DNA of 44,292 bases, taken from IMG/VR virus record IMGVR_UViG_3300031951_013707, positions 1-44,292 of that record, one strand, 5' to 3'. The notes beneath the pieces are model-generated. The model was given only the letters and a program-made list of their open reading frames with translations, searched no databases and was not told the origin of the DNA. Below, piece after piece: positions 9,794 through 33,218 of the stretch (position 1 is its first letter; each line of letters opens with the position of its first letter). Source of the stretch: a virus. The position numbers and the translations under genes are program-made.

Positions 9794-9798
9794 ACTAT

Positions 9799-9806
9799 TA
9801 TTTATA
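9799..9806 (-). promoter_or_regulatory. TATAAATA, exact T4 late-promoter octamer before start codon
   Basis: An exact TATAAATA on the minus strand, 5 bases before the ATG at 9793, in a 42-base gap. If used as a T4-type late promoter, transcription would begin at about the A of the ATG, giving a leaderless mRNA. No Shine-Dalgarno is present. It may instead be chance or an AU-rich initiation signal. Confidence 0.3.
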
Positions 9807-9835
9807 GAACAAAAATACCAAATCGTTTATTTTAA

Positions 9836-10810: not shown

Positions 10811-10811
10811 T

Positions 10812-13394
10812 TTAATCGAAATGATATATATGTGTTATAAATTTATTGACGGTTTCAAATGGTTTTACTAATATCGTTTTATATAATAAAGTGCCTTCAC
10901 TAAAAACCTTAAGTTCATGACGTTTTTTACTATCCAATTCAACACCCCACCAATTATTAGCACATAAAACTAAATTAATAGGCGCGTGATGTATTGTAGG
11001 GTGTGTAATATCATTGACATGTACAGTAATAAAATGAAGTTTATCAGCTATAAATTCGATATAGAATTGATTCGTATCACTAAATTTGACTGTTAACGAT
11101 CCATTTATTTCAGATCTAACTTTGTTTTTACTAACAACTTTTATTTTATAATTTTTTAAATGATTAAAGATATAATAATCATCGTGAATTTCCGATTTGT
11201 CAAAATTCATCCAAGAATATTTTACACTTTCGTCTACCTCAATATGTTTTGGTAAACGTTTATTTTTCATATTATTTTCTGTGATAGTGTATGTTTTAGC
11301 ATCATGACTTGGATTCCACTTATCATTAAACAATGATAAACCACAACCTCTAATAACATTATATGCCGATGAGTGTTTCAAATAGTCATATTTAGATAAA
11401 TCTAATTTTACATATATTGCCTTTCCAAAAAGTTTAAGTCTTAAAGCAAAATCGTTATCTTCATACTCACCGGCGAGAAACCGTTCATCCATCATGCCTA
11501 TTTCTTTAAATAATGATTTTGTTGTACCAAATAAACCAAATCCAACTAAAGACGCAAAGCATTTACCTAACATTAATTCTTTTATTATAAACTTTAAATC
11601 ATTCTCATTTAAAACTGTTTTTGGATTTACAAAAATCATATATTCGGATTTCGTATTATAAACCGATTCATTAACCATTTGTGAAAATGAAGCATATCCA
11701 TTTGGAGAATAATCTCTTGAAAGATAAATCTCCAGCTCAAATTGTGTGTTTTTCACAGACTGTAATTGACTATTAATTATGTAATCGTCGTTTGAAAATA
11801 ATATTAAAGCAATCTTTTTTGGTAACATATATTCCAAAAAGTCATCCAATCTTTGTTGATACGATCTACCACAAAATTGAATAATAAAGTCGCCTGATTG
11901 ATATATGTTATCTTCTTGATTCCAATTTGGATAATATTGTAACACATTCGGGTCATTTGTTTTACAAAATCCATTACAAACTCGTTCATGAATCATTTTT
12001 GTACGATTCTTATAAACTTCTTCGTTTAATAATAACAATCGCATAGATTGTTGTGCATGATCAAATACATTAACATCTATGTTTTTAAGATATGGTTTTT
12101 CTAAGTCATATGCATCTCTTAAAAATTGTTTTGTCAAATCACAATTTCTATAAAACGCAGATCCATTAGATATATAACTGTATTTGTTTGCTGTAAAAAT
12201 TAAATCATAATTATTGTCAATTATCGATTCTAACTGAATATCAAAATTTACTATCAACGAATCTAAATCGATCCACCATACCCAATCATATTTATCCGTT
12301 AACAAAAGACTTTCTACAGCCTTCACCATTCCCCATTGAGCAGGTCTTGTCCTATCAATAACATCGTTAAAATAAATAAAATCATAATCATATTTACCGG
12401 CGTATGACATTTTATTTGGTATTGATAGTTTTGCTAAATCAGCATAGTTTTTATCAAACAACGTTACTATTGCAATTCTCTTTTTATTTTTATAAAATCC
12501 ATTCATATTAAAAATCTTGTTTTTTAAATATTCTAAACAGTTATCTAACTCAGAAACCGATTTACATCCATGGAAAAATTTTATATCATTTTTATCTTTT
12601 GGTATGTAATGCCATGCACATTCATCAACCCAATAATCAGTTTTTGGATTTTCATAAAAATTTTTTATAGAATCGCAATTCGACAAATTGAAGTGAATAA
12701 TAGGCAGATGTTTAGTTGCATTATATTTCCATAACAATACATTTATTATTGTTTCATCATGATACGGCGCATACAATAAATTATTGTTTAATATACGTAT
12801 ATCATTTGATATTTTTATACATTCTTCAAAAAAAGAACAACAGTTCTTATTAAATACTATAAAATTTGTTTGTACATAATACATCGATCTATGTTTAACA
12901 TCATATAGATTCATCATTGGAAGTTCCAACGGGTCGCCTAATCTGGGATCGCCAATTCCGTTTAAAATCATGTATTCGAATATACCTTTACCAACCAGAG
13001 GATAATTTTCACACTCTTTTAAGTATTCAAAAGATTCATCGATATTTTCACGAACTATCCCATCAGCATCTAGAAATATTCCTTCTTCTAATCCATGATT
13101 TAAAACATCTAATATTACACTTGGTTTTCTACTTAAAACGTAGTATGTATTATAATCGCTACGTTCTACTATACCTAAACTCGTATCAGTACTAAGTATA
13201 AAATTAGGGTCTTTCAAATTCACATCGTCTATACGTTTTGTATAAACGTTATTATGTTTCTTAGTATAGTCAAAATTAAAAGTGTATAATATTATTGGAT
13301 AACTTGAAAATAAACTTATACTTTCTATTAATTTTTCTACTAATGGACAGTAACGTTCATTAACAAACGTTACAAATGCTTTTTTAGGAAACAT
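10812..13394 (-). CDS. Triple GT-A glycosyltransferase fusion
   Basis: The protein is 860 residues from the ATG at 13394. An 18-base longer frame would need a TTG start inside the upstream gene, so I prefer the ATG. Three nucleotide-sugar transferase modules follow one another. The first has EGIFLDADG near 107. The second resembles GMA12/MNN10-type (GT34) enzymes with WVWWIDLDS near 374. The third is GT2-like with a FVNPKT strand and EYEDNDFALRLKLFG near 644. The last 110 residues are a beta-rich module also seen in neighbouring enzymes (NNWWGVELDSKKRHELKVF). Each DxD-type motif is intact, so all three could be active and build a glycan in sequence. Substrates are unknown. The gene lies 4 bases after the GT4-FkbM gene and 1 base before the 324-residue gene. 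Confidence 0.75.
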   Translation of the reverse strand: MFPKKAFVTFVNERYCPLVEKLIESISLFSSYPIILYTFNFDYTKKHNNVYTKRIDDVNLKDPNFILSTDTSLGIVERSDYNTYYVLSRKPSVILDVLNHGLEEGIFLDADGIVRENIDESFEYLKECENYPLVGKGIFEYMILNGIGDPRLGDPLELPMMNLYDVKHRSMYYVQTNFIVFNKNCCSFFEECIKISNDIRILNNNLLYAPYHDETIINVLLWKYNATKHLPIIHFNLSNCDSIKNFYENPKTDYWVDECAWHYIPKDKNDIKFFHGCKSVSELDNCLEYLKNKIFNMNGFYKNKKRIAIVTLFDKNYADLAKLSIPNKMSYAGKYDYDFIYFNDVIDRTRPAQWGMVKAVESLLLTDKYDWVWWIDLDSLIVNFDIQLESIIDNNYDLIFTANKYSYISNGSAFYRNCDLTKQFLRDAYDLEKPYLKNIDVNVFDHAQQSMRLLLLNEEVYKNRTKMIHERVCNGFCKTNDPNVLQYYPNWNQEDNIYQSGDFIIQFCGRSYQQRLDDFLEYMLPKKIALILFSNDDYIINSQLQSVKNTQFELEIYLSRDYSPNGYASFSQMVNESVYNTKSEYMIFVNPKTVLNENDLKFIIKELMLGKCFASLVGFGLFGTTKSLFKEIGMMDERFLAGEYEDNDFALRLKLFGKAIYVKLDLSKYDYLKHSSAYNVIRGCGLSLFNDKWNPSHDAKTYTITENNMKNKRLPKHIEVDESVKYSWMNFDKSEIHDDYYIFNHLKNYKIKVVSKNKVRSEINGSLTVKFSDTNQFYIEFIADKLHFITVHVNDITHPTIHHAPINLVLCANNWWGVELDSKKRHELKVFSEGTLLYKTILVKPFETVNKFITHIYHFD

Positions 13395-13398
13395 AATT

Positions 13399-15321
13399 TT
13401 ATTTTTTTGCAAAAAAGAAACCTACATCTTCTTTGAATTCTGGGTCTTCTGGATTATATATTGAGTATCCTATAGATTTAAATCTTTCAACAATCGGCTT
13501 TATATTTTTATGTTTGGCCCAGTGATATTCAATTAAATATCTATCTGATTTTAATAAGTCTTTATCTGAAAGGCTATTGATTACATCATACTCGGCTCCT
13601 TCAATATCTATTTTAATCAAATCTACGTGATCTAATTTATTGTTGATCATAAAGTCTTTAAGAGTGATGACATCGACTTCTTCTTCATTCATATTGTGAT
13701 TTGTATATGGATGAGTATCGTCTATAAATCCACTAATCGTAGAATTATCTTCGACTGACTTTATTTTAAATTTTCCATTAAAATTATAAATTGCTAACTT
13801 ATGAATATGAGCGTTGCTTTCACCCTTTAAAGATTCCGATATTTGATCAAACGCTTTCTTAGTAGGTTCTACAGCGTGTATAGTATTACAGTTACGTATA
13901 TTTAACATATACAAACTGAATAATCCTACATTTGCTCCTATATCAATAACAGTATTAAGATTTGACAATTCACAATTTTTATAAATGTCTTCATAAAACA
14001 TTTGTTTATAATTAATATACAAACAGTCAAACGGAGAAAAGTTTTTATTCAGTTTGATCGGAGTATAGTCCAGATCTCTTATCTTTAGAGTTTTAGAGCC
14101 AATTAGTTTTTTATCATTTGTATAAAATTCTAACAAAAATTCGCTAAAATAACTTTCGTTTTTAAAGTTTCTATCTCCATTTGGAACTATACGCCACCAA
14201 CAATCTTTTTCCATGCTTATATGACAAAAATACATAGGCATTTTTGTCATATTATCTTTAACAGATACATAACCACTAAATCCTTTACTTGAAATTAAAT
14301 GTATAGAGTTTGGCTCGGTAAATGATAGATTGATATCTAAATCGACATTGGTAATATCTACAATATTTGATTTTATTTTATCTTTTATCAACTTTAAGTT
14401 GTTTTCAAAATCTGGGGTTAACCAATTTAAATTTGGATACTTATCATACATTCCACAGTAAACTGGTAAGTTATACAATAACGATGGAATATTCCAACCT
14501 ATAGCTTCTCTTATAACTAATGGACTTGTCTCTTTATCTTTAATAGTACCTTTTGAGGTAAACAAAAATACATCCATTGCATTATAAAATGTATCTACAT
14601 CTCTACGTTCTCCCCAAATCTTACAATTTTTAGGTAAATCTTTTATTAAAGGTTCCCAGTAGAAACTAAAATTTTGTGCTTGATTACCTACGAAATGAAA
14701 TTGAACAGGCTGATCCGTTAATCTACGAGCATATTCTATAATTTCTGCCTGATTTTTACGAGGAGTAAACAATCCTACATTCACAAAATGTGTGAGATTC
14801 GGATCTAAACCTAATGCCAATAACGAACTATTTCTATCAGTCTTGGTTTTATATTCAATAGGATATTCTACAACATCCGATGGTATATCCAAAGAGGCGA
14901 ACATTTTCTTTTGATAAATGCTTACAAAAGCAAATCTATCTGGAAAAAATTGTTTAGAACTTACCTCGAAACTACTATCATGTGAGGTTTCTATGATTTT
15001 ATAAGTTCTGTCAGAAACATAGATTTTTTCAGCAATCGTTCTCTCACAAAAATACTCAGGCAATTCTTCAAAGTGAATTACGTCAGGTTTAATATTATCG
15101 ATTTGATTTAATAATTCTACTTTATTGTCGGTAAGTGTTATTAACTTATCGCCTAGTATTTCTCGTATTCTATTACGTTGTACTACAAATACACCTCCTG
15201 TAATATCATCATATTCAACACAATAAACATCGTGATGATCTTTCAATTCGACGATTTTCTTTAATAAGTATTGTGGACCTCCGCCTGTAGACAAATGTGG
15301 TGTTATAAACAATATCTTCAT
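13399..15321 (-). CDS. GT4 glycosyltransferase fused to FkbM methyltransferase
   Basis: This is a 640-residue, two-enzyme fusion. Residues 1-330 are GT-B/GT4-like: MKILFITPHLSTGGGPQYLL is the Gly-rich acceptor/donor loop of the family, and a strand DVFLFTSKGTIKDKETSPLVIREAIGW supplies the Glu-x-Glu type donor-binding segment. Residues about 335-430 are a beta module (MEKDCWWRI, then FLLEFYTNDKKLIG). Residues about 450-640 are a FkbM methyltransferase with the SAM loop VIDIGANVGLFSLY near 463 and DLIKIDIEGAEYDVI near 574. FkbM enzymes commonly O-methylate sugars, so this protein could add a sugar and then cap it. It is the first gene of block 2, 6 bases downstream of the SbcD-SbcC gene, so it is probably co-transcribed with DNA-repair genes. 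Confidence 0.85.
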   Translation of the reverse strand: MKILFITPHLSTGGGPQYLLKKIVELKDHHDVYCVEYDDITGGVFVVQRNRIREILGDKLITLTDNKVELLNQIDNIKPDVIHFEELPEYFCERTIAEKIYVSDRTYKIIETSHDSSFEVSSKQFFPDRFAFVSIYQKKMFASLDIPSDVVEYPIEYKTKTDRNSSLLALGLDPNLTHFVNVGLFTPRKNQAEIIEYARRLTDQPVQFHFVGNQAQNFSFYWEPLIKDLPKNCKIWGERRDVDTFYNAMDVFLFTSKGTIKDKETSPLVIREAIGWNIPSLLYNLPVYCGMYDKYPNLNWLTPDFENNLKLIKDKIKSNIVDITNVDLDINLSFTEPNSIHLISSKGFSGYVSVKDNMTKMPMYFCHISMEKDCWWRIVPNGDRNFKNESYFSEFLLEFYTNDKKLIGSKTLKIRDLDYTPIKLNKNFSPFDCLYINYKQMFYEDIYKNCELSNLNTVIDIGANVGLFSLYMLNIRNCNTIHAVEPTKKAFDQISESLKGESNAHIHKLAIYNFNGKFKIKSVEDNSTISGFIDDTHPYTNHNMNEEEVDVITLKDFMINNKLDHVDLIKIDIEGAEYDVINSLSDKDLLKSDRYLIEYHWAKHKNIKPIVERFKSIGYSIYNPEDPEFKEDVGFFFAKK

Positions 15322-15327
15322 ATAATA

Positions 15328-18300
15328 TCAAATATATACTACCTTACTATATCCGTTTTCTTTTTTTATTTCTAGTCTAGTATCAACCATATCTCTCATT
15401 TGATCCAGATGACTAATAACCCAGATAAAATCAAATTGATGTTTTAAATAGTTAAATAAAGCACCCATCTGACCCAAGTGGTCGCTGTCAGCACAACCAA
15501 ATCCTTCATCAATACAAATGATATTTGGTCTTGGTAAGTTACTAATGTTGATCAATGCAACTCTTATTGCCAATCCACTTACAAACTTCTCCATACCACT
15601 AGCCATTTCAAGTGGCCATTGTCTATCATCATAAACAATATTTGTACTGATGTTTTTACCATCTGTTTGCATAGATACACTAAATTCCACCAATTGATGA
15701 AGAATGTTGTTAACTTCCTTCTCAATTTCAGGCAAAGTCTTGGTAATAATCTCATATGGAATACCATCTCGGCTGATAACATTGGTATATAGTTTATAAG
15801 ACTCATACGAATCTTCAAGCTCTTTAACCTTGTTAAGCTGATCGGTTGTATTTTTATACTGCAATTCAAGTCGTCCCTTTTCAGTAGAAGTATTAAACAA
15901 TTTATTATTCAACGATTTAATCTGAACTTCACAATCCTTAATCAAAGATTTCACATCATTAATTTCTGCAATCAGCTTGATGTTATTTTCAATAATATCT
16001 TTATTTTTATAAAAATTTTCAATCTTTTGAACTACCTCTTTTAAAGTGTTTTGTAGTTTAATCTTGAAATTTTCGTCACGTAATATTGCTGTAGATAAAA
16101 CTTCTTTGGTCTTCTCTAATTTAACTTTATTGTTATTAACGCTCTGGCATTCTTTATAACGGGTTTCTATATCACCAAATGAATCCAATCTATTCTTTAT
16201 GATATTATACTCTTCTACCAACAATTTTCCTTTGTTTTTATCAAGTTCCAATTCTTCTTTGGTCTTAATAGCATCTTTTACAAAAACGTTATTTACACAA
16301 TATGTACAATTAGGATCGTACTTATGTTCTTCTAATTTTTTTAACTTGTCGATTTTATTTTTAACGACTACTTTAAGCTTATCAATTTCAGAAGACTTTT
16401 TGGATTCTTCGTCTTTGCAAATTTTATATTGTTCATAATCAGTTTCGATATTATCACAACTTTTTAATGACGAAGATAAATTATTTAATTCGGATTCAAT
16501 CGACAAAAACTTAGTCTTTTTATCATTAATATCTTTTTCAAAGTTACTAACTTTAGATTCCAAATCTTTCTTTTCTGATTCTAGTTCTGTGATATCAATA
16601 TCAAATGAAGAGGTCTTAACAACGTTATTTGATAGCTCCAACAACTTGTTATTTTGTTCGTCTTTTTTAGATTCCAACTCTTTTACTTCTAAATTATATT
16701 GTGTAATACTTGAATTATTAATATCAATACTACCAGATACATTTTGTAACTCTTGAAGTAACTGTTCTTTGCTTACATTCTTTAAAAGTGTATTTGTTTC
16801 TTTAAACTTGTCATTTGCCAAATTGTACAATTGATCAAATACGGTCAATCCCATAAATTGGCACAATAAATCCTTACGTTCAGTTTGACCTAGATCGATA
16901 AAAGATCCAGCCTTACTATTCTGTATACTAAGAACTGTTAAAATAAAGTCTTCATACGTACCTACGTAATCTCTGATTATATCATTCGTGCTTCTACGAG
17001 CTTCTCCGTTTAATGGTACTTCATTGCCGTTTTCTATTTTATAGAACTTAACATCAACCTTAACATTTCCTTTTTTATCGGCTTTACCGTCACGTTCAAT
17101 AAAGTAATCGACTCCATTTACCTCAAAGTTGAATTTACAACGAAAACTCATCTTTTGAGTATTTAAAACGTGTGATGCTTTGAATCCTTTACTAAACTTA
17201 TCAAATACACAAAACGCAAGTGCATCCATGATACTTGATTTACCACTTGCATTTGGTGCAAATAATCCGATAGTACCTTTTAGTTTTGTGAAATCAATTA
17301 TGTTACCCTCACCATAACTAAACATATTATCAAACTCAAACATCTTTGGCTTCCATCGAATGTTCTTTGGTGCTTTATCCTTGGGTATTTCTTTATTCAG
17401 AGTTTTATTTAACTCTTTAACTTTTTCTATAATATCCTTACCCAAATTTTTAGATACGAGATTATCTTCAATAAGTTTATTTTGATAATCGACATTAAAA
17501 ATGTTGTGTATGTCAAATATCTGACCAGACTTTAAAGTCAAATCATTAGAAAGTTCATCACCACGAACATATGTAGTTTCAACTAAAGTACATTTCTCTT
17601 TAATTTCACTTACAATTTCCTTTACCTGTGAGGGTATAGATTCCCTACAGATTACTCTTAATGTAGCCTTCTTTGGAATTGATGAAATATCCGTTACTAG
17701 CTTGCCTTTATTGATTTCAACTGTATAAAAACCGTGATCATTTGATAACTCATAGTGTTTATATACTTTACGTTTTAAGTCCCACATCAAAAATCCATGA
17801 CCTTTAAGTTCTTCACCATGATTTTGTTGAATCATAGAACCTGCGTATACAATTACTGGTTTATTTTCCTTTTCATCATATTCTTGTAGAACTTGGTGCT
17901 TGTGAATGTCACCTAACATTGCAATATGGTGACCGTCAAATAGTTCATTTGTAATAGCACGATTGCTTACAGTATATCCAATATCAGTAACAGCATTATT
18001 TACGGGTCCGTGAAACAGTGCAATGTGATGATCTGTACCAACCAGATACTTTGCGGGTACATCATCTAATTTTACGTATTTTTCAGGACTATCAAATACG
18101 CTGAAATTATTAAACAAGATATTTTCATACCTAAATACATCACTTGCCTTTAAGTAATAAAGATTTGAATGATTTAAACTGTCTACGATTGGAGTTAAAC
18201 AATCTAATCTAGACTTATTAGCTAATGTAGCGTCATGATTTCCCGCAGTGAGAATTGTAGGAACACGATCAGCGCAATTTTTTAGAAATTCACTTCCGAT

Positions 18301-18513
18301 TTTTACACATTCCGGACTTAAGTCAGATTTATTATGAAAAATATCACCCGCAACTACTAATACTGCATTTAGTGTTTTTGCTTTATCAAGAGCTGCATAA
18401 AACTTTTGAAAAACTGACTTATATTCATCGTGTCTTTGTGTAAGACGAATATGAATGTCTGCAATATGCATTATGCAATTGATTTTTTCATCTGTATTTT
18501 TTAATACAATCAT
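15328..18513 (-). CDS. SbcD-SbcC (Mre11-Rad50, T4 gp47-gp46) fusion nuclease/ATPase
   Basis: One 1061-residue chain carries both subunits of the Mre11-Rad50 complex. Residues 1-340 are a Mre11/SbcD phosphoesterase with HIADIHIR (D19, H21), VVAGDIFHN (D57), TAGNHD (N92-H93-D94), LFHGPV and MLGDIHKHQ, the full metal-binding set. Residues about 380-1061 are SbcC/Rad50: Walker A APNASGKSS near 420, a long coiled coil broken near 737 by the zinc hook C-T-Y-C, an ABC signature region SGMEKFVSG near 974, and Walker B IICIDEGFG near 1000. In T4 these are two genes (46 and 47) that drive recombination-dependent replication and host DNA degradation. Fusion fixes a 1:1 ratio. The gene overlaps the primase stop as ATGA. 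Function is secure; the fusion is directly visible and has no internal stop. Confidence 0.95.
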   Translation of the reverse strand: MIVLKNTDEKINCIMHIADIHIRLTQRHDEYKSVFQKFYAALDKAKTLNAVLVVAGDIFHNKSDLSPECVKIGSEFLKNCADRVPTILTAGNHDATLANKSRLDCLTPIVDSLNHSNLYYLKASDVFRYENILFNNFSVFDSPEKYVKLDDVPAKYLVGTDHHIALFHGPVNNAVTDIGYTVSNRAITNELFDGHHIAMLGDIHKHQVLQEYDEKENKPVIVYAGSMIQQNHGEELKGHGFLMWDLKRKVYKHYELSNDHGFYTVEINKGKLVTDISSIPKKATLRVICRESIPSQVKEIVSEIKEKCTLVETTYVRGDELSNDLTLKSGQIFDIHNIFNVDYQNKLIEDNLVSKNLGKDIIEKVKELNKTLNKEIPKDKAPKNIRWKPKMFEFDNMFSYGEGNIIDFTKLKGTIGLFAPNASGKSSIMDALAFCVFDKFSKGFKASHVLNTQKMSFRCKFNFEVNGVDYFIERDGKADKKGNVKVDVKFYKIENGNEVPLNGEARRSTNDIIRDYVGTYEDFILTVLSIQNSKAGSFIDLGQTERKDLLCQFMGLTVFDQLYNLANDKFKETNTLLKNVSKEQLLQELQNVSGSIDINNSSITQYNLEVKELESKKDEQNNKLLELSNNVVKTSSFDIDITELESEKKDLESKVSNFEKDINDKKTKFLSIESELNNLSSSLKSCDNIETDYEQYKICKDEESKKSSEIDKLKVVVKNKIDKLKKLEEHKYDPNCTYCVNNVFVKDAIKTKEELELDKNKGKLLVEEYNIIKNRLDSFGDIETRYKECQSVNNNKVKLEKTKEVLSTAILRDENFKIKLQNTLKEVVQKIENFYKNKDIIENNIKLIAEINDVKSLIKDCEVQIKSLNNKLFNTSTEKGRLELQYKNTTDQLNKVKELEDSYESYKLYTNVISRDGIPYEIITKTLPEIEKEVNNILHQLVEFSVSMQTDGKNISTNIVYDDRQWPLEMASGMEKFVSGLAIRVALINISNLPRPNIICIDEGFGCADSDHLGQMGALFNYLKHQFDFIWVISHLDQMRDMVDTRLEIKKENGYSKVVYI

Positions 18514-23168: not shown

Positions 23169-23184
23169 TTCAAATTTGCCATAA

Positions 23185-25575
23185 TTATCCAGCATTTTCT
23201 TTTCTTTCCTCGGGTTTATAATAAGCAATTCTATTGTGATTAACAGGACTTGCTAATAATACAGCTGGTTTTAAGTTACCTTTTCTTGTTTCTTGAAACA
23301 TATGACTCATCCACGTTTGTTCATATGGATGGGCCCATGTGGTATCTAAAAACATCTTTTTATTTCCTCGTTTACCGACTATCATTGGCCAATTTGCATA
23401 ATATACTTCACCCTTGATATAACTCAATCCGTCAACTACTTCGATTGTATCAAACTTAGTTCTAGGACAGTTAGGATCGTGTCCCGTAACTGGTAATTTA
23501 CTGTAAGTAGGCCAGATTTCATTTCTTACTGTTTGAGGCACATTGTACCAAGAAACTTGTATGTTGTTATCCATGTATACTTCTGTGTATGAAAACTTTA
23601 AGAAATCTACATCGTTGTCTCCATCAATAATTTTTAAAACTTTATCATACAAATTTGGTACGTAGGTTGTGAATCCATTACGACATACTTCGGATCCGGG
23701 TTCATGTATACCCATATCATCTTCCAAAAATACATAATAATCACTATCAGATTCTTGAAAGTGTTGTGCTGCTTTAAATCTACCACCATTTATTCCTGTA
23801 TTTTGATTATTTATGATATGTTCAAAATTATACTTTTTACACAATTCTGCATTTGCAATTCTAGCTTCTTCGTTTGTAGAATTATCAATCAAAATGTTTC
23901 GTGTATTGGTTATCCACTTTGGATGTTTAAGCCAGGTTTGTATAGTATGTTCGACTTGATGTGGAAAGTTAAATGTTAACATATATATTGATAATTTTAA
24001 CTTATCAACATCCACTGACTTTTTTGGAATATAAACATTAGCTGTTTTAGGTATCTTTTCAAGTTGTACCGTATTATCAATAAGCGATTGTACAAATTTT
24101 ACAATTAAACCATTTGAATCTAATGAATATCTTCTATACTTCTCCGGCTCTAAATAAGACATTATAGTAAATATACTCTCTTCTGTACCCATACAACCAT
24201 CATTCAAACTTCTATCTAACAACGAATAATACATTGCGTTTGCTTGATTAATAACATCTTTACTTCCACCAAATAGCCCACCCCTACAAACGTATTTTAC
24301 TTTCTGACCACAATACTGATTAATTTTGTTGTAATCAAATCCATGTATTTCTTTATCAGCTTCATATGGATAACTTAAAAACAAAAATGATTCTAAATAA
24401 GGAATTATTTTATCCAAACACTTATTGTCAGTAAAATATTTTTCATATACGGTATTTGTTATTCCTGCGTCTAACCAAATAAAATGTTTTGTATCAAACG
24501 GATTCCAAATGGTAACATCATTCAATAAAAACATTTTTGATTGTACTATTGGATTATACCATTCTAAAGATGCTTGTGGAGAAGATGATAACCACCCTGC
24601 TATATTGAACCAATTATGATCGGTTCTTATTTTTTGTGTTTTTTCCCAAAATGGGTTATACATATTTTTTATATCACTCAACTCATATATTTTTACGTAA
24701 GTGTTTTGTGGAGATCTTTTTTTCCAAACCAAATGTTCTAATTCTTTTGGCAAATAAATAAATAAATTTGCATCAATATCCAATAACTTATTAAAATGTT
24801 CAATATAATGATCAAACGATCTTCCTGTTCTGTTTATGTTCCAAAGACCTGTAACAACGGTTAAGTCTTTAGATATTTTACTTTTACCGACTGTGTTAAC
24901 ATTGTTTTTAATTTTTTCGTAAATTTGTCTATCGACGCCATCTATATTTTGACCTATTTCAATCACATAACCATTTTTTTCAAATTTTTCAATTGTTAAT
25001 TTTTTCTCTTCTTCGGAAAGATTGATATATTCTAATCTTATAAATTTTGGACGAATTTTACTAAAATCTAATTGTTGAAATATTTTCCAGTCATAACCTT
25101 CGGCATCACAAATTAAAACGTCAATTTTTGATATGTTATGTTTATCTATTAAAGATTTTAATGTTAACGTATTAACTTTTATATCTACTCCGAATTTGGA
25201 TTTAACATCTACGTCTCGTTGATAATCACTTCCAAATCCATTTCTTAAAGGATACAAAGCACTCATACCTTTATATCCAGTATGTAAATTCTCTCTTTCA
25301 ATAACATCTGATGGAATTGTTAACATTACAGTTTCTCCATCAAAATCGGATATAGCAGATTGTTCGTATTTATAATTATCTACATAAGAAAAGTTCTTTT
25401 TTAACTCTTCCATAATAGACGGAATCGGTTCAACTAATAATGCTGGCCATCGATACATATCTAAAAAACCACGGGTATCGTCAAAAATTATACCGTCCAT
25501 TGCTCCAATTTGCAAAACAAACGTATCATTGTAGTTTTTACCTATATAATGTAAAGTGTCAGATATTATATTCAT
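23185..25575 (-). CDS. Three-domain enzyme: FkbM methyltransferase, HtrL/YibB-like, GT-A glycosyltransferase
   Basis: This is a 796-residue fusion. Residues 1-215 are an FkbM-type methyltransferase (VLQIGAMDG at 20-28, VLICDAEGYDWKIF near 157). Residues about 232-505 match the HtrL/YibB pattern: LTVVTGLWNINRTGR, then HFIWLDAGI near 368 with a D at the sugar-donor position, GGLFGGSKD, and GCMGTEESIF. Residues about 530-796 are GT-A/GT2-like (SIYMLTFNFPHQVEHTIQTW, then YYVFLEDDMG near 618 as the DxD motif). It ends block 1 and overlaps the upstream GT-A gene by ATGA. FkbM first and GT last is the reverse order of the block 2 fusions. Methylated-sugar transfer is a reasonable guess; the acceptor is unknown. 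Confidence 0.75.
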   Translation of the reverse strand: MNIISDTLHYIGKNYNDTFVLQIGAMDGIIFDDTRGFLDMYRWPALLVEPIPSIMEELKKNFSYVDNYKYEQSAISDFDGETVMLTIPSDVIERENLHTGYKGMSALYPLRNGFGSDYQRDVDVKSKFGVDIKVNTLTLKSLIDKHNISKIDVLICDAEGYDWKIFQQLDFSKIRPKFIRLEYINLSEEEKKLTIEKFEKNGYVIEIGQNIDGVDRQIYEKIKNNVNTVGKSKISKDLTVVTGLWNINRTGRSFDHYIEHFNKLLDIDANLFIYLPKELEHLVWKKRSPQNTYVKIYELSDIKNMYNPFWEKTQKIRTDHNWFNIAGWLSSSPQASLEWYNPIVQSKMFLLNDVTIWNPFDTKHFIWLDAGITNTVYEKYFTDNKCLDKIIPYLESFLFLSYPYEADKEIHGFDYNKINQYCGQKVKYVCRGGLFGGSKDVINQANAMYYSLLDRSLNDGCMGTEESIFTIMSYLEPEKYRRYSLDSNGLIVKFVQSLIDNTVQLEKIPKTANVYIPKKSVDVDKLKLSIYMLTFNFPHQVEHTIQTWLKHPKWITNTRNILIDNSTNEEARIANAELCKKYNFEHIINNQNTGINGGRFKAAQHFQESDSDYYVFLEDDMGIHEPGSEVCRNGFTTYVPNLYDKVLKIIDGDNDVDFLKFSYTEVYMDNNIQVSWYNVPQTVRNEIWPTYSKLPVTGHDPNCPRTKFDTIEVVDGLSYIKGEVYYANWPMIVGKRGNKKMFLDTTWAHPYEQTWMSHMFQETRKGNLKPAVLLASPVNHNRIAYYKPEERKENAG

Positions 25576-26396
25576 TTTAAATAACCCATTTTATAAAAAT
25601 TAGTGTGTGAATCGTCGGCTTGTTCTTGACGATATAAATTGCATCCTTCATTTATATCATGTGTTGTGTGTGAAAGTACAGGAAAAGTCGTTACCCCTCC
25701 TTTGTCTCTCCAGTCTTGTAACGATAGAAGTTTTTCTTCGTTTTCATAAAAAGTCACCATTTTTCGAATGTTGTGTTTTCCTAAATATGCTGCAACGATA
25801 ATATCATCATTCCAACTTCCCTCTTTATAAAATTCAAAAAAATCATCTTTAAAAAAGTTTCTTTTATAAGAAACAGTTTTATAGTGTTGCAATACATTAA
25901 CATATATGTTTTCAGCAACCGAGACGACATAATGATCTCTTACATCTCCTTTTAATTTTGAAACGTCTTCTGGTGTTTCTCTATCAGCCCTCATACCATC
26001 ATAACCAATTGCAGTATTTTCATATATAGATTGGTTCTTAACGTGTTCTGATAACATCGAAGGATGATATATTAAATCATCATCACATACCACTATTATA
26101 GTATTTGGATTGTCTTCCCGATGTAATGTATAAAAAATCTTAGTTATTGTCCCCAAATCTTGTAATCCACAAAATAACTTTAATTTAGGATTGGTTATGC
26201 TTAAATTTTTAAGACAATCAGGCACAATATATTTTTCTTTGGTTTTATGATTTTCATCTGGTATGTTTAAATGGATTTCGTAATCGCCATCAAATTCTTG
26301 ATTTAATAATGAATTTAAACAATCTTTAATACCTGACGTATATGTTGTAGAATTTAAACGTGTGGGTATTGTGGTAAGCGTGATTATGGTTTTCAT
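25572..26396 (-). CDS. GT-A glycosyltransferase
   Basis: This 274-residue single-domain enzyme begins MKTIITLTTIPTRLN, typical of an N-terminal donor-binding strand. IIVVCDDDLIY near residue 102 is the metal-binding DxD, and SWNDDIIVAAYLGKH near 218 is a likely catalytic-base region. No membrane segment is visible, so it should act in the cytoplasm on a phage protein or a soluble acceptor. The start overlaps the upstream gene region by only a 2-base gap, and the end overlaps the next start as ATGA, so it is tightly coupled within block 1. The sugar is unknown. Confidence 0.75.
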   Translation of the reverse strand: MKTIITLTTIPTRLNSTTYTSGIKDCLNSLLNQEFDGDYEIHLNIPDENHKTKEKYIVPDCLKNLSITNPKLKLFCGLQDLGTITKIFYTLHREDNPNTIIVVCDDDLIYHPSMLSEHVKNQSIYENTAIGYDGMRADRETPEDVSKLKGDVRDHYVVSVAENIYVNVLQHYKTVSYKRNFFKDDFFEFYKEGSWNDDIIVAAYLGKHNIRKMVTFYENEEKLLSLQDWRDKGGVTTFPVLSHTTHDINEGCNLYRQEQADDSHTNFYKMGYLK

Positions 26397-26398
26397 AT

Positions 26399-27415
26399 TT
26401 AATTTCCAATCGTGGTATAAACGTGGGTATCGGTAATTTCTAAAATTGGGAGATGTTGATCATAATATTTTTTAAGTTGTAACTTATTGTTTTTAATAAA
26501 TTTTGATATAGACGTTACATCCGAATAGTCAAAAGAAAAATGGTCCCAACATGAACGGGAACCAACTGAATGAAATGTATCCTCCGGCCTAGTTTTATGA
26601 ATCATTATATTACCCCATTTTGGTAAATGAGTTAGATCTTGTGCATTTAAATATAAATAATCTAAGTTATTTTTTAATATATCAAATGCCGTTGGAAATG
26701 TCCAAATAAAATTGTGATAATACGTTCCTTTAAATAAAAGAGTCTGGTTCAGAGAAAATGATTCAGTTATAAAAGTATCGATTAAATTAAATAATAAAAG
26801 TAAATCTTTTTTATTTTTAAAATTTCCGCCATAAATAAAACTATCATCGTTACGAAACTGAAAATTTTCTAATTTAAATTTGGGTAATTGATTATTAGTA
26901 CATTTTTCCAAAAAATTAAAAATAATATTAACATAAGAAGATTCTTTTGTATGATATCCTTGATTCCAAGCATAAACCGACCCTACAGGTATATTATTAA
27001 AAAAATCTTCAATACATTCTATATCGTTTCGTATAACCATATCAGTATCCACAATAACAAAATTTAGAATATTTTTTTCCGAAAAATATTTTAATATATA
27101 CCTGTTTAAAAACAAAGGCACTTGAATTTTATTTATAGAATAAAATTGATTAAATTTTAAATAAAACTCTTCGTCTGAAGAAGCTTCCATGCATATTTCG
27201 TTTTGTAAACTTAATAAATTATCGTTTCGTAAATCGTCAATTACAACAAACGTAAATAAATCGTGATAATCTTTATACAACTCAAAATAATATTTTGTAG
27301 TAAATATTACAATATAATTCTTAACAACGTCACTACAAGATTTTAGTAGTAAATCAAACCTATATTTCATAGGGGTGCCAAAACAATACATTGCAATTTT
27401 AGGAGATTCATTCAT
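26399..27415 (-). CDS. GT-A-type glycosyltransferase
   Basis: The protein has 338 residues. NFVIVDTDMVI near residue 123 is a DxD strand of GT-A enzymes, preceded by a VPLFLNRYILKYF helix that matches the GT8-like layout (helix then DxD). A later region RNDDSFIYGGNF (about 185-197) and HNFIWTFPTAFDIL could form the acceptor pocket. IMIHKTRPEDTFHSVGSRSCW near the end contains a conserved-looking His. It starts inside the upstream methyltransferase gene (8-base overlap). The glycosyltransferase call rests on the DxD motif, length and location. The family assignment is uncertain. Confidence 0.65.
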   Translation of the reverse strand: MNESPKIAMYCFGTPMKYRFDLLLKSCSDVVKNYIVIFTTKYYFELYKDYHDLFTFVVIDDLRNDNLLSLQNEICMEASSDEEFYLKFNQFYSINKIQVPLFLNRYILKYFSEKNILNFVIVDTDMVIRNDIECIEDFFNNIPVGSVYAWNQGYHTKESSYVNIIFNFLEKCTNNQLPKFKLENFQFRNDDSFIYGGNFKNKKDLLLLFNLIDTFITESFSLNQTLLFKGTYYHNFIWTFPTAFDILKNNLDYLYLNAQDLTHLPKWGNIMIHKTRPEDTFHSVGSRSCWDHFSFDYSDVTSISKFIKNNKLQLKKYYDQHLPILEITDTHVYTTIGN

Positions 27416-28112
27416 GATTTATAAATATCGATTGCCTCCCCCCCACGATTTTTGTATATCCATTTTGTAAAAGATATGGTGTTAATAATTTGTCTTTTCC
27501 ACCAACAGGTTCTATAAAATCAGTATCATCTACAGATATTAAATGTAAGGGAGATAATTTGGGTCTTGCTGTAATAAATGCTTCTAAATGTTTTTCTGCA
27601 TATAAATGACTACCAACATCCCATCCATCTAAATACAAAAAGTCGATTTGTTTATTAAAATTTTTTAAAAATTCAATTCCACATTGTGGAATGCAAATAT
27701 GTAAATTACTTGGAAGATCTTCGTTTAAATGATATTTATACTGATTTTCTAATTGTGTCTTACAATGTGGATCTATATCAACTGTGTATACATCGTATCC
27801 TTCTTTAGCCCAAAAATGAGTAGAATGTCCATCTTGACAACAAGGCGGTGCCTCACATTCTTTTATATCAAATGATTTGTTATAATAGTCGATACATTTT
27901 TGTGTAGTTTCTATACGAGTAGATCCTATTTCCACTATAGTTTTTGCTTCTAAAATTCTAAGAAACTCATGTGTTTTTCTTATCCATTTTGCGGGATAAC
28001 TTCTTAGACTATTTTCAAATGGTTCTAATCTAACACGATCCCAGTAAATTACATCTGGATTAAAATTTTTAGATAACTCTAGTATTTTTGTATATTTCTC
28101 ATTCATAATCAT
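27408..28112 (-). CDS. Class I SAM-dependent methyltransferase
   Basis: I start this at the ATG at 28112, whose ATGA overlaps the upstream stop. A longer frame to 28139 would need a TTG codon. The protein is 234 residues. TIVEIGST near 58 is the SAM-binding glycine loop, YDVYTVDIDPHC is the acidic second strand that binds the ribose, and IDFLYLDGWDVGSHLYAEKHLE is the next strand with the catalytic region. A CEAPPCCQDGHSTHFW insert of Cys and His residues between strands 1 and 2 is unusual and could bind metal. The end overlaps the next GT-A gene by 8 bases. By context it should methylate a glycan, which is inference. Confidence 0.7.
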   Translation of the reverse strand: MIMNEKYTKILELSKNFNPDVIYWDRVRLEPFENSLRSYPAKWIRKTHEFLRILEAKTIVEIGSTRIETTQKCIDYYNKSFDIKECEAPPCCQDGHSTHFWAKEGYDVYTVDIDPHCKTQLENQYKYHLNEDLPSNLHICIPQCGIEFLKNFNKQIDFLYLDGWDVGSHLYAEKHLEAFITARPKLSPLHLISVDDTDFIEPVGGKDKLLTPYLLQNGYTKIVGGRQSIFINHE

Positions 28113-30712
28113 AATTTTATTTCTATACGTTCTGACCAACCTCTTGTTTCACTTACTGCCCAATAAACCACTTTTATAGGCCACCTATCAGTTAAGAAAT
28201 ATTCTTCATAATGAATTGGCGTACTGTTATGTATAAAATCGGTTAATTGTTTTCCAACAATATATTTACTATTTACAGATTTACCACCAGCATCATCGAA
28301 TGCTACTAAAATAGCAGAATAATCATTTGCAGGTAATTGATCTCTAGTAATATTAACTAGATGATAAAATGACTTTTTAAGTGATTTTTTCCATTCATCG
28401 TCTGACATTGGTGGATTTGGTGGAATATCATTATCCATAGTATACTGTTGAACTGATTTTTCTTTAAAACATATACCTGAATATAGTTCGTAATCATGTA
28501 ATGATCGTTCTTTACCAAGATCATATCCAGTCAAATCAAATCCATTGTATTCGGTTTGTAGTAACTGTCTAATTTTAGCTCTCGCCTTATTCTGTGAATC
28601 ACTCCAATTTTCACCTCTTTTATTTTGATCATCCCACACAAGAATACCATCACGCTCTTTTCTAGTCATTGAATGCCAAATAACAACTTTATGTGGATGA
28701 TAAATATCATATCCGTGTGTAAAAGATCTAACGGTGAGATTTATTTCTTCTCCACTAAAGAAAATATCCACATCGTGTTTAATAGTCTTAGCCCAGTGAT
28801 TATCACCAAAACAAAAATGGCCTGATAAAAACCGAGCTGGTACAGGTTTTGTTATTTGATTAAGATTCTTAAAAGCAGCGGGTCTAATAAAAATAGTACC
28901 GTGTGGATAAAAACAAGACATTACCGACTGCCAAGGTTCTTTTGTTCTAGATTTAGGATCGTCAGTTGGATCATAAAAAGGAAGATATCCAGCAACAAGT
29001 GGTTTTTTAACACCGTCTTTTTTTAAACCGTCGTGCATTTCAATTAAAGTATTATCCCAGTCTTTATTAAAACGATGATGACTGTCTAACTGTAAAATGT
29101 ACTCTTCATCGAGCATCATTGTGTTGATCTGATACCTAGCAAATGGCAACCCTTTTGCTTCAGTATAATCCATGTCAATAATTCTAAACCTTTCGTCGTT
29201 ACGATATTTGTCTATATCTCTAGAAAACTTATCATCTTCATTAAATTGATGACAAATTCCAAAAACTAATCTTTCAGGATGTTTAGCATTAGTCAATGCA
29301 CTTTCTATCGTAGGTAATAGTTCAGGATCTCTATATGCCGGTATATGAACAAATATTTTACGTTTATTTGGATTTTTATTAAACTTAACTTTGGATTTCT
29401 TGTATTTGTTTATATGTTTCCACAGACTGACAGGATCGGGTGTACGTGGAATTGGTTTTTTAAAATCATAAATGATACGTTCTATTCTCTCCGTCCATCC
29501 CTTTGATTTACTATGTGGCCAAAATACATAACTGTATGGAAGTTCTTTTGTATAAAAAGTTCTCCAAATTCTATACCATTTATCAGAAGGATTTGATCTT
29601 TTAAATGAATTTACTTCATTTTCATCCGCGTCACATCTAATAATTTCTTTACCATCTGCATTTTTAAATGCAATGATCCAGGCATCATAATCGTTTTCGG
29701 GAACACTATCTACATGCATATCTATGCAAAATTTAAAAACATGTATCCACGACTTTTCATATTCAACCGAATCTTCTATAATCGGATTTGGTGCCAGTTT
29801 TTGATCTAATGTATATTGTTGTACAGCTCTGTCTTTAAATCTTACTCCAGCAAATCTTTCATAATCTTCTAATGATCTAACTTTACCCAAATCAAAAATG
29901 CCAAAATCTATATTTTTGATTTCGCCATCCATACCAAATAGTTTTCTTGTTCTAAGATGTGAAGAATTGTTTCTCTCATTCCAAATCTTATCATCATCCC
30001 ACTGTTTAACCGCACCATTTCTATAATAATAATGCCACGCTACAATTTTATGTGGGTGAAATAAATCATATCCGTGTGTGTAAGCTCTAACAGCCATATT
30101 TATTTCTTCACCGTGAAAGTATAGGTTTGGATCATATACAACTTCTTTAACAAATGAACCAAGTGTAAAAACAAAATGTCCGGAAAAAAATCTTGCTGGA
30201 ATGGGAGAAGTCAACTTTTTATAATTCGGTATCACAGACGGCGTTGGAAATATTGGCCCTTCAGGTAAATATCTATCAAAACATATCATCCACGGTTCGT
30301 GTACTCTAGCAGCAGGATCATTATTTGGTTCATATGACGGAATATAAGCAGTAATCAATGGTTTTTTAGATCCTTTTTTTTGTAGATCTTTTAACATTTC
30401 AATTAATTGTTCATCCCAATTTTCCACAAATCGATGATGACTATCTAATTGCATACAATACTCTTCGCCAGAATACAATAAATTAAGTTGATGTCTTACC
30501 CAACAGACACCTTTGCTTTCCTTATAAGGTATGTCAATAATTTTGAATCTATTATCATTTTTGAATTCATCCAAATTTTCAGATTCATCATGTTGCCATC
30601 CTATAGCAAAAACTAAATTTTCCGGATGTTTTGCTTTATCAATACAATCTTTGATTGTTGGAATTAATTCTGGATCTCTATAACTCGCTATTTGTACAAA
30701 TATCTTTGACAT
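28109..30712 (-). CDS. Tandem-duplicated GT60-like N-acetylglucosaminyltransferase
   Basis: This 867-residue protein holds two copies of one domain. Copy 1 (residues 1-400) has IFVQIASYRDPELIPT, MQLDSHHRF near 88, PARFFSGHFVF, and FHGEEINMAVRAYTHGYD. Copy 2 (about 425-867) has IFVHIPAYRDPELLPT, LQLDSHHRF near 541, PARFLSGHFCF and FSGEEINLTVRSFTHGYD. Each copy has its own DSH motif, so both should be active. This pattern fits the GlcNAc-transferase family of Skp1 hydroxyproline GlcNAc-transferase (GT60). Members also glycosylate Thr of trypanosome mucins. It lies immediately downstream of the Pro/Thr/Ser repeat gene, a striking substrate candidate. It opens block 1 and is followed by an ATGA-coupled methyltransferase. 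Confidence 0.8.
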   Translation of the reverse strand: MSKIFVQIASYRDPELIPTIKDCIDKAKHPENLVFAIGWQHDESENLDEFKNDNRFKIIDIPYKESKGVCWVRHQLNLLYSGEEYCMQLDSHHRFVENWDEQLIEMLKDLQKKGSKKPLITAYIPSYEPNNDPAARVHEPWMICFDRYLPEGPIFPTPSVIPNYKKLTSPIPARFFSGHFVFTLGSFVKEVVYDPNLYFHGEEINMAVRAYTHGYDLFHPHKIVAWHYYYRNGAVKQWDDDKIWNERNNSSHLRTRKLFGMDGEIKNIDFGIFDLGKVRSLEDYERFAGVRFKDRAVQQYTLDQKLAPNPIIEDSVEYEKSWIHVFKFCIDMHVDSVPENDYDAWIIAFKNADGKEIIRCDADENEVNSFKRSNPSDKWYRIWRTFYTKELPYSYVFWPHSKSKGWTERIERIIYDFKKPIPRTPDPVSLWKHINKYKKSKVKFNKNPNKRKIFVHIPAYRDPELLPTIESALTNAKHPERLVFGICHQFNEDDKFSRDIDKYRNDERFRIIDMDYTEAKGLPFARYQINTMMLDEEYILQLDSHHRFNKDWDNTLIEMHDGLKKDGVKKPLVAGYLPFYDPTDDPKSRTKEPWQSVMSCFYPHGTIFIRPAAFKNLNQITKPVPARFLSGHFCFGDNHWAKTIKHDVDIFFSGEEINLTVRSFTHGYDIYHPHKVVIWHSMTRKERDGILVWDDQNKRGENWSDSQNKARAKIRQLLQTEYNGFDLTGYDLGKERSLHDYELYSGICFKEKSVQQYTMDNDIPPNPPMSDDEWKKSLKKSFYHLVNITRDQLPANDYSAILVAFDDAGGKSVNSKYIVGKQLTDFIHNSTPIHYEEYFLTDRWPIKVVYWAVSETRGWSERIEIKL

Positions 30713-30759
30713 ATCTATAATATATCATGTTATATTTGTAACTATTTTTTATAATTATG

Positions 30760-30775
30760 AGACTCTTAAGAGTCT
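30760..30775. repeat. 16-base perfect palindrome in the largest intergenic gap
   Basis: AGACTCTTAAGAGTCT reads the same on both strands. It lies in the 100-base gap between the repeat-fibre gene and the GT60-like gene. Neither strand has a U-run after it, so it is a poor intrinsic terminator. It may be an operator or an RNA processing hairpin. I see nothing else in the gap beyond AT-rich leader sequence. Confidence 0.5.
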
Positions 30776-30812
30776 TTAACGACGTTGGATTTTAGTTCAT
30801 ATAACTTTTAAC

Positions 30813-33218
30813 TTACGGACATGACTGACAAGGAGATTGAGGTTCAGAACCTTGTGTGAATATACGATATGGATCTTCGACAGTTCCACTACCACAAGCA
30901 GCTGCCAACTTAATTAGGAATGAGTCAAAGTCTACATTATAGTTAATATTTACATTTTGTACACAACAACCATCGACTGGCGAATAAGCCTTTTGTGTAG
31001 TATACAATGTAACGGCGGCGCCATTGTCTGGAACAAAGCCTGAACTAATATATCCTGTAGCTATAACTTTGTTACTACATCTCAATCCCAATGCCGTTAG
31101 AGGAACTTCAGCTGTATCTGTAATAGTGACACTTGCATTGCATTGTGTATAAACCAATATACCATTACCGCTGTTTTGTGATACACACGATGATACAACT
31201 TCCATATTACCATTATTACATCTTGCTCCGGTAGGAGCTCCTGTGTAACAGTCACACCCACTTGGTATAGGATCGGGACAAGGGTCTTGTTGAGGACATG
31301 CGCTAGCCGCTGGATACACAACGAAATATGCAGCGCCGGCTGGAGCAGTACTAGTGCTTGGTGTAGGTGTTACTGTAGGCGTAATACTAGGTGTAGGTGT
31401 AATGCTTGTTGTAGGTGTTATACTTACACTAGGCGTTATGCTGACGCTAGGCGTTATACTTGGCGTAGGTGTTATACTCGGTGTTACACTTACACTAGGC
31501 GTTATGCTGACACTAGGCGTTACACTTGGTGTAGGCGTTATACTCGGTGTTACACTTACACTAGGCGTTATGCTGACACTAGGCGTTATGCTGACACTAG
31601 GCGTTACACTTGGTGTAGGCGTTACACTTGGTGTAGGCGTTACACTTGGTGTAGGCGTTATACTTGGCGTAGGTGTTATACTAGGAGTTATGCTAATACT
31701 AGGCGTTACACTTGGTGTAGGCGTCACACTTGCTCCTGGAGTACCACTAGGTGTAGGTGTTACGCTAATACTAGGTGTAATGCTTGGTGTAGGCGTAATA
31801 CTGGTGGTTGGAGTTATACTAGGTGTTGATGTTATACTAGGCGTAGGGGTTATGCTGATACTAGGTGTAATGCTTGGTGTAGGTGTCACGCTTGCTTCTG
31901 GAGTACCACTAGGTGTAGGTGTTATGCTGATACTAGGTGTAATGCTTGGCGTAGGTGTCACGCTTGCTCCTGGAGTACCACTAGGTGTAGGTGTTATGCT
32001 AATACTAGGCGTTACACTTGGCGTAGGTGTCACGCTTGCTCCTGGAGTACCACTAGGTGTAGGTGTTATGCTAATACTAGGCGTTACACTTGGCGTAGGT
32101 GTCACGCTTCCAGCAGGAGTTGTGCTAGGCGTAGGTGTTATGCTAATACTAGGCGTTACACTTGGCGTAGGTGTTATGCTAATACTAGGCGTTACACTTG
32201 GCGTAGGTGTTACGCTAATACTTGGTGTTACGCTAGGAGTGACTGTTACACTTGGAGTTGGTGTTACACTGGGAGTAGGTGTTATGCTAACACTGGGAGT
32301 TATGCTTGGAGTAGGTGTTACACTTGGAGTAGGTGTTACACTTGGAGTAGGTGTTATACTAGGCGTAACAGTTACACTTGGAGTAGGCGTGACGCTAGGT
32401 GTAGGTGTTAAACTAGGAGTTGGAGTGACTGTTGGAGTAGGTGTAACACTAGGAGAAGGTGTTGGTGATGGAGCAGGTGGCGGTGGTGGTGGTGGCACAC
32501 ATAAATATCTACCAATTCCTTGATAACAATAATTTAATACGGATGCTGTATTGTTGGTTTGTAATTCAAAATCATTTACAAAATATGAACCTGATATAAA
32601 CAAATTATTGTTACCATCATCAACAATGTAGGCTACTATATCGCCGGTTTGATTGTTTATTATAACACTCTTGGGTCTAATTTTATCTCCACTTTGAGTA
32701 ACATTTAGGGTATAACTTACAAATTTATCATCAAGATTTAATTTTGCTAATGAAGTATCAAATCCATCGATACCAAATTGTTGATATGCATTATTGTAGT
32801 TGTTATAATACATGTTTTTAATTGTATTATAAACTTGTCCTTGATATGTACCGTCTAAATTGGTAGGATTTGTAAGCGGATTATAATTTGGATCTCCTAC
32901 TGGATAAAAAACGGAACTTGAAGGTATTTTTAAACCCAATCTAAATTCAGGATTATTTTGATCTGTAAATGGAGAACTTGCTAAAAATCCATTTGTATTC
33001 AATGAAGTACCATCACAATTATAATTTATAGAAGCAAACGAACCTGTTTGCAAACTATTATAATTGTAACCACATTCTTGTACAGGAATGATAAGTGGAA
33101 AATCATATGTACCGTCGCTTGCAAGAATTAAATCATAAAAAATGTTATTAGCAATTTTTTTCTTAGCAACTGCAAATGTAGTAATCTGTATATCTTGATT
33201 TTTAAGAAACTTAATCAT
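30813..33218 (-). CDS. Mucin-like Pro/Thr/Ser-repeat fibre protein
   Basis: This 801-residue protein has four parts. The N-terminal 235 residues begin [20 protein letters not shown], which resembles the anchor region of phage fibre proteins. A stretch of seven prolines then leads into about 380 residues (242-620) built almost only of Pro, Thr, Ser, Val and Ile in units such as [12 protein letters not shown] and [12 protein letters not shown]. The C-terminal 180 residues form a Cys-rich knob ([17 protein letters not shown], about ten or more cysteines). An extended, rigid stalk with a terminal knob fits a host-binding fibre. The repeat is an ideal O-glycosylation target and lies beside a GT60-like gene. 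The octamer TATTTATA precedes the start. The virion role is inference; the repeat is directly visible. Confidence 0.75.
31360..32480 (-). repeat. Pro/Thr/Ser-coding tandem repeat array with 72-base units
   Basis: Short 12- and 18-base units encode TPSV/TPSI and TPTPSV. Within them, a larger 72-base unit recurs with exact spacing at 31903, 31975 and 32047 (each marked by GTACCACTAGGTGTAGGTG on the plus strand), and a related start is at 31741. The coding strand is strongly C/A-rich and less AT-rich than its surroundings. Slippage or recombination could change its length. Confidence 0.9.

Follow-up and report, generated by a model that had tools for sequence, protein, structure and literature searches.

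A Thr-Pro repeat protein encoded beside a double GT60-type transferase suggests that phages build their own mucin-like glycoproteins

Is the long Thr/Pro/Ser repeat of a viral structural protein the substrate of the glycosyltransferase encoded next to it? The question is raised by a viral stretch of 44,292 nt (IMG/VR record IMGVR_UViG_3300031951_013707; hereafter, the window), in which two adjacent minus-strand ORFs, a repeat gene and a GT60-like gene, fill positions 28109-33218, as an earlier note on this DNA had described. The results suggest that such phages make mucin-like proteins of their own and coat them with sugar. We consider it likely that the GT60 enzyme initiates mucin-type O-glycosylation of the TPTPS[V/I] array and that neighbouring transferases extend the glycan; as far as genomics by itself can show, an enzyme-substrate pair is strongly supported.

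The repeat protein (801 aa; 30813-33218, minus strand), whose ORF adjoins that of the GT60 protein, has three parts: an N-terminal domain (residues 1-241; 32496..33218) that is conserved in the tail/baseplate region of the phage group, the TPTPS[V/I] array (residues 242-622; 31353..32495), which is the proposed O-glycosylation acceptor, and a Cys-rich, C-terminal non-repeat part (residues 623-801, plus the stop codon; 30813..31352), all on the minus strand. The repeat had been put at about 380 residues in the earlier note; 381 were counted (T105, P104, S81, V38, and I37), with 94 TP dipeptides and 30 TPTPS motifs. Pro, Ser, and Thr made up 76% of the 381 residues, a long tandem Ser/Thr/Pro-rich domain such as is asked of a mucin-type acceptor. 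Codons were mixed at third positions (Pro, CCT 63 and CCA 36; Thr, ACA 52, ACG 30, and ACT 20), and Tandem Repeats Finder gave several overlapping periods over the same array. The array is not a chance product.

No Pfam match was found for the repeat protein, including its C-terminal part, and its sole PHROG match was that of the repeat/C-terminal region to a PHROG of unknown function. The AlphaFold model of the N-terminal domain (pLDDT 30) was too poor to give a fold. This domain was 70-87% identical in most relatives and 48-51% identical in further ones, and it occurred as a stand-alone protein of 227-248 aa in 13 relatives. The repeat gene lies a few genes after gp25/gp6-like genes and has no family match of known function; its product may be a fibre, as the earlier note called it.

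The neighbouring gene (867 aa; 28109-30712, minus strand) matched PF11397 (GlcNAc, GT60-type) with 417 bits against a cut-off of 21 bits (E = 8e-125) in two tandem copies, and phrog_24687 was matched twice. The GT60 identity proposed earlier was thus borne out, but the single domain became two. Domain 1 (residues 1-420; 29453..30712) carries DSH at 90-92, EE at 202-203, H227, and WDD at 238-240, whereas domain 2 (residues ~445-867; 28109..29380) is a distinct paralogue fused to it, with the motif intact. The DSH, EE, C-terminal metal His, and WDD were invariant across 25 phage sequences, both halves included. In a survey of GT-A enzymes, DxH takes the place of DxD in GT27 and GT60, families that have polypeptide Ser/Thr O-glycosylation in common (PMC7185993). 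The AF2 model of domain 1 had a pLDDT of 91.7, and its best 34 PDB matches were all GT27 polypeptide GalNAc-transferases (E to 1e-10; TM 0.4-0.5), several of them solved with mucin peptides; no GT60 structure was found by a sequence search of the PDB. The model predicts a GT-A fold, nearest to the GT27 mucin-initiating enzymes.

The two halves are old paralogues: in the tree, domain 2 clustered with the second member of GT60 gene pairs that are unfused (G031, G083, and G113; support 100/100). In every case this second paralogue followed the first, the two being fused in the window and separate genes in three other viruses (L327, L337, and L345); by analogy with the GalNAc-transferases, it is perhaps a follow-up enzyme. 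Among the characterised members of the family, the Trypanosoma cruzi OGNT, whose acceptor residue is Thr, and the Dictyostelium mucin-type enzyme start mucin-type O-glycosylation of mucin-like proteins. Skp1 Gnt1, the third characterised branch, acts on hydroxyproline. Hence, the claim that the family modifies just such sequences held for two of three branches. The activity predicted for the window GT60 from its sequence and model is most likely that of a UDP-GlcNAc:polypeptide transferase.

On the minus strand, the gene order of the window ran from gp25-/gp6-like baseplate genes through several tail-region genes to the repeat protein, the double GT60, and a cassette consisting of a methyltransferase-like gene, two probable glycosyltransferases, and an FkbM/HtrL_YibB/GT2 fusion, followed by an FG-GAP protein. 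The first cassette gene (27408..28139, minus strand; listed start TTG, with ATG at 28112 being likelier) would encode a Rossmann-type, probably SAM-dependent methyltransferase, judging from its motif, and has relatives in the GT60 cassettes of L008, L017, L018, L338, L339, and L348. A DTD motif points to a probable GT-A glycosyltransferase in the second (26399..27415, minus strand), which has a relative in L008. The third (25572..26396, minus strand) is GT2-like (PF00535, E = 0.0037, under the Pfam cut-off), with relatives in the GT60 cassettes of L008, L017, L018, L339, L345, and L348. The fusion gene (23185..25575, minus strand) joins an FkbM methyltransferase (PF05050), HtrL_YibB (PF09612), and a weak GT2-like part; its homologue lay a few genes from GT60 in 14 of the first 14 GT60 loci and in most others, making it the most constant GT60 partner. 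Further glycosyltransferases and methyltransferases, as announced in the earlier note, were therefore firm for the fusion, whereas 27408-28139 and 26399-27415 matched no Pfam family and 25572-26396 had only its sub-cut-off GT2 match. In the loci compared, the genes after GT60 were of GT25, GT2, HtrL_YibB, and FkbM types, with a putative role in stepwise glycan extension.

A second sugar cluster of the window (7022-15321) contains a GT4/GT9 gene with a weak match to the TibC N-domain (7022-9793), a GT34-like gene, and a GT4+FkbM gene. It was considered as part of the system and rejected: relatives with neither repeat nor GT60 still have its GT4/FkbM gene (49-73% identity), and the cluster is therefore probably a separate system.

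When the N-terminal 229 residues alone were used as the query, 16 loci were obtained. In 13 of them, the protein stopped at the point of the expected repeat start (residue 227-248), and the FG-GAP gene came next. GT60 and the cassette were absent from all 13 repeat-less contigs (GT60 was looked for on the entire contigs), and a search of eight of them over their full length gave no repeat either. By comparison, GT60 was present in all seven loci that have the repeat and downstream sequence (the window, L005-L008, L033, and L034), with the two genes adjacent or one gene apart; the sequence of L021 breaks off within the repeat. No informative locus carried the repeat without GT60 or GT60 without the repeat. 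A block of approximately 9.3 kb (23171..32498, minus strand), comprising the repeat arm, the double GT60, and the cassette, was missing as a unit from close relatives. The empty site of L022 was clean: the stop followed immediately after ...GIGRYLC, exactly at the repeat start, the leader after the stop was nearly the same as that of the window (ATTTATATACATAATGTC), the FG-GAP gene came next, and the flanking genes were mostly 81-95% identical to those of the window. Because the difference is one block, this comparison represents few independent events.

A DNA pattern for TPTP[S/T][V/I]TP[S/T][V/I]TP retrieved 120 viral stretches, chosen blind to GT60. GT60 was encoded in 29 of 68 repeat contigs of at least 25 kb and in none of 38 contigs drawn with a neutral 14-mer, which were unmatched for virus type (Fisher, P = 1.7e-7); the first neutral pattern gave eight contigs, among them one (G092) that encodes GT60 as well as the repeat, and was replaced by another. 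The share of repeat contigs with GT60 climbed with contig size, as would be expected of fragments: it was 6/30 for contigs of 25-50 kb, rose to 9/19 between 50 and 100 kb, and reached 14/19 from 100 kb upward. The difference between repeat and neutral contigs was significant among those of at least 100 kb (Fisher, P = 0.006). FkbM genes were likewise enriched (8/30 repeat contigs, 0/20 neutral contigs), so part of the genome-level GT60 enrichment is due to virus type. The adjacency and same-locus tests are free of this mismatch. In the repeat-first set, the repeat was directly upstream of GT60 in 19 of 32 cases (background, 8.6%) and within two genes of it in 25 of 32 (background, 16%).

GT60 was not found in 39 of the 68 repeat contigs (24/30 at 25-50 kb; 5/19 at 100 kb or more), which indicates that the repeat can exist without GT60, although most of these contigs are fragments. 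The earlier note had named, as evidence against the pairing, a majority of relatives that carry the repeat but lack the transferase; this held only for short fragments. Beside the repeat of the GT60-negative contigs, Pfam searches found no consistent alternative transferase family. Large repeat contigs without GT60 include L050, G007, G012, G020, G074, and G129; the gene beside the repeat in L050 (8103-9023) had no Pfam match and may encode a transferase of a different type. In L236/G140, a neutral control contig, a pure (TP)n repeat was accompanied by a sub-threshold GT60-like match (15 bits); the two may be a divergent form of the repeat-GT60 pair.

In the reverse direction, at least 598 viral stretches encode a GT60 relative, and 80 were fetched. 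A same-strand repeat ORF lay immediately upstream of GT60 in 21 of 80 cases, compared with 31 of 694 other genes in the same regions, and a repeat ORF lay within 8 kb in 47 of 80. Among the 33 without a local repeat, all seven on contigs of at least 93 kb had TPTPxxTP elsewhere, so 19 of 19 GT60 contigs of at least 90 kb carry the repeat. These counts are not independent, since GT60 contigs, fragments, and sister phages share kinship. The upstream repeat proteins formed eight groups, between which no similarity was detectable beyond the repeat; GT60 is therefore linked to the repeat itself rather than to any single family of proteins. In one large GT60 clade, GT60 was not next to a repeat gene, and in L011-L018 it lay within a sugar-gene cluster with no local repeat gene. 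Upstream of bacterial GT60 genes, the repeat was found in 1 of 60 cases, from which it follows that the family has other substrates too. Bacteria of many phyla (L448, L450, L453-L456, and others) encode GT60 relatives, mostly without a neighbouring TPTP repeat. Long PPSPPSPPS arrays, a different type of Pro-rich stalk, occurred alongside TPTP repeats in the same viruses (L350, L352, and L016).

Among 50,697 phage records searched for the window type of GT60, only XacN1, RAS14, and CM1 had it; with the repeat protein as query, under a low-complexity filter, tblastn gave no match in cultured phages. All three complete genomes also had the repeat, and eight of eight related jumbo phages (Paride, PA5oct, CBB, 121Q, GAP32, SNUABM_47, BF, and SD-1_S14) had neither; in the cultured jumbo phages, GT60 did not adjoin a repeat gene. 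XacN1 (AP018399) has at least 12 Thr/Pro-repeat ORFs (ORF174, 180, 233-237, 350, 369, 370, 372, and 384), and its ORF334 is a window-type GT60 by sequence match. Proteomic analysis of the XacN1 virion found "at least two glycoproteins," which its authors suggest are due to the phage's own transferases ORF328 and ORF334; the main text of that paper does not name the glycoproteins individually (PMC5852040). Two of the XacN1 repeat ORFs are near tail sheath genes, and the phage has been described as lacking tail fibres. The repeat-GT60 pairing is not a local chance event and recurs across many unrelated large phages; co-occurrence of the two genes in relatives, suggested in the earlier note as a check, was favourable in the same-locus, repeat-first, GT60-first, and cultured jumbo phage tests.

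Other readings of the association were weighed. The GT60 cassette could have another target, such as host LPS or capsule or phage DNA bases, the link to the repeat then reflecting a shared hotspot for variable tail modules in large aquatic phages. Relatives of GT25 and HtrL_YibB are members of clusters of the LPS type, and such a target would also suit the sugar-gene clusters of L011-L018 and the parallel enrichment of FkbM genes. DNA and the glycans of the host surface, moreover, are common targets of phage glycosyltransferases (PMC12619734). We nevertheless regard this reading as unlikely: immediate same-strand adjacency was far above that of other genes in the same regions, the eight unrelated groups have only the repeat in common, large GT60 contigs always hold the repeat elsewhere, and GT60/GT27 form a polypeptide-acting branch (PMC7185993). 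In addition, when relatives lose the repeat, only the GT60 cassette goes, whereas the GT4/FkbM gene of 7022-15321 stays.

It is quite improbable that GT60 glycosylates folded or Cys-rich parts of virion proteins and that the repeat is an unmodified, polyproline-like spacer. Thr/Pro/Ser linkers are unglycosylated in many proteins, and the 39 repeat contigs without GT60 would agree with a spacer; however, the non-repeat parts are unrelated between groups, the Thr-Pro array is what they share, and N-terminal domains without the array never accompany GT60. Hitchhiking, in which a single indel event brought in or removed the repeat arm together with the cassette and their wider co-occurrence stems from a shared habitat or host, fits the single block and few events of the window's own group. 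It seems very improbable for the association at large, which is seen again in phages far removed from this group (XacN1 type, L033 type, and several GT60 clades), where the repeat proteins and the order of the genes differ.

In the preferred reading, initiation by GT60 on the array, the enzyme would move a sugar, most likely GlcNAc, from a UDP-sugar in the cytoplasm of the infected bacterium to Thr, and perhaps Ser, of the array in a phage structural protein from the same operon. The GT2-like, HtrL_YibB, and probable GT-A neighbours would lengthen the glycan, FkbM-type methyltransferases may cap it, and the sugar-covered extended segment would enter the virion with its protein, probably in the tail or baseplate region. 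Covalently bound sugar is thus predicted on TPTPS arrays from sequence. We infer the array's role as acceptor, the identity of the sugar, the order of the steps, where in the virion the protein sits, and what the phage gains. The gain may lie in antigenic shielding or adhesion; stiffness, altered adsorption, protease resistance, and mucus binding are speculation. With somewhat better than even confidence, we extend this reading to a widespread mucin system of large tailed phages, in which one trans-acting GT60 would serve many unrelated TPTPS-repeat virion proteins, the particle would be covered with methylated O-glycans, and a second, specialised GT60 paralogue would have been added in some lineages.

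Several known systems resemble this locus in part. The CAZy GT60 enzymes (T. cruzi OGNT1/2 and Dictyostelium) share PF11397, DxH, a GT-A fold near GT27, and a Thr/Pro-rich, mucin-like partner; unlike them, the window enzyme is phage-encoded, has two fused paralogous domains, and would work in the bacterial cytoplasm rather than the Golgi, its activity being predicted. The animal GT27 ppGalNAc-transferase system is similar in predicted fold, DxH, clustered Ser/Thr-Pro acceptor, and the presence of further transferases, but sequence identity is low (10-17%), and here the enzyme and putative acceptor are in one phage operon; no evidence of a GT27 lectin domain was found in the window GT60. In the bacterial cytoplasm, the autotransporter heptosyltransferases Aah/TibC O-glycosylate a repeat-bearing surface protein whose gene lies next to theirs; the arrangement of repeat protein and neighbouring enzyme is alike, whereas GT family and repeat type differ. 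In mycobacteriophages, the subunits of the capsid and of the tail tube carry glycans at their C-termini (Freeman et al. 2023, as cited in PMC12619734); both cases concern phage virion proteins, the sugar of the window being predicted from genes, and the window has a long TPTPS array and GT60. XacN1 has the same combination of GT60 (ORF334) and many TPTPS-repeat ORFs, together with reported virion glycoproteins, but its repeat genes are not adjacent to GT60, and the main text makes no connection between repeat and enzyme (PMC5852040).

Glycosylation of phage virion proteins is known in few cases, and none in the literature searched combines a mucin-like array with an initiating enzyme dedicated to it. 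No earlier description of mucin-like, Thr-Pro repeat, or GT60 phage proteins was found in that literature, outside of which lay most subscription journals and preprints. If the preferred reading is true, mucin-type glycosylation would be common in large environmental phages, given the number of viral stretches that encode GT60, and it could influence how particles adhere, how they are recognised by the immune system, and whether proteomics detects them, since standard searches would miss arrays that bear sugar. GT60 enzymes of bacterial-cytoplasm origin are potential tools, and the system is open to testing in cultured phage.

Two further features of the window were observed. The tail sheath protein (2907-6929) is unusually long (1340 aa), with sheath domains only near its C-terminal end. 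One ORF (15328-18513) seems to join a gp47-like nuclease and a gp46-like ATPase, which are two ORFs in L022.
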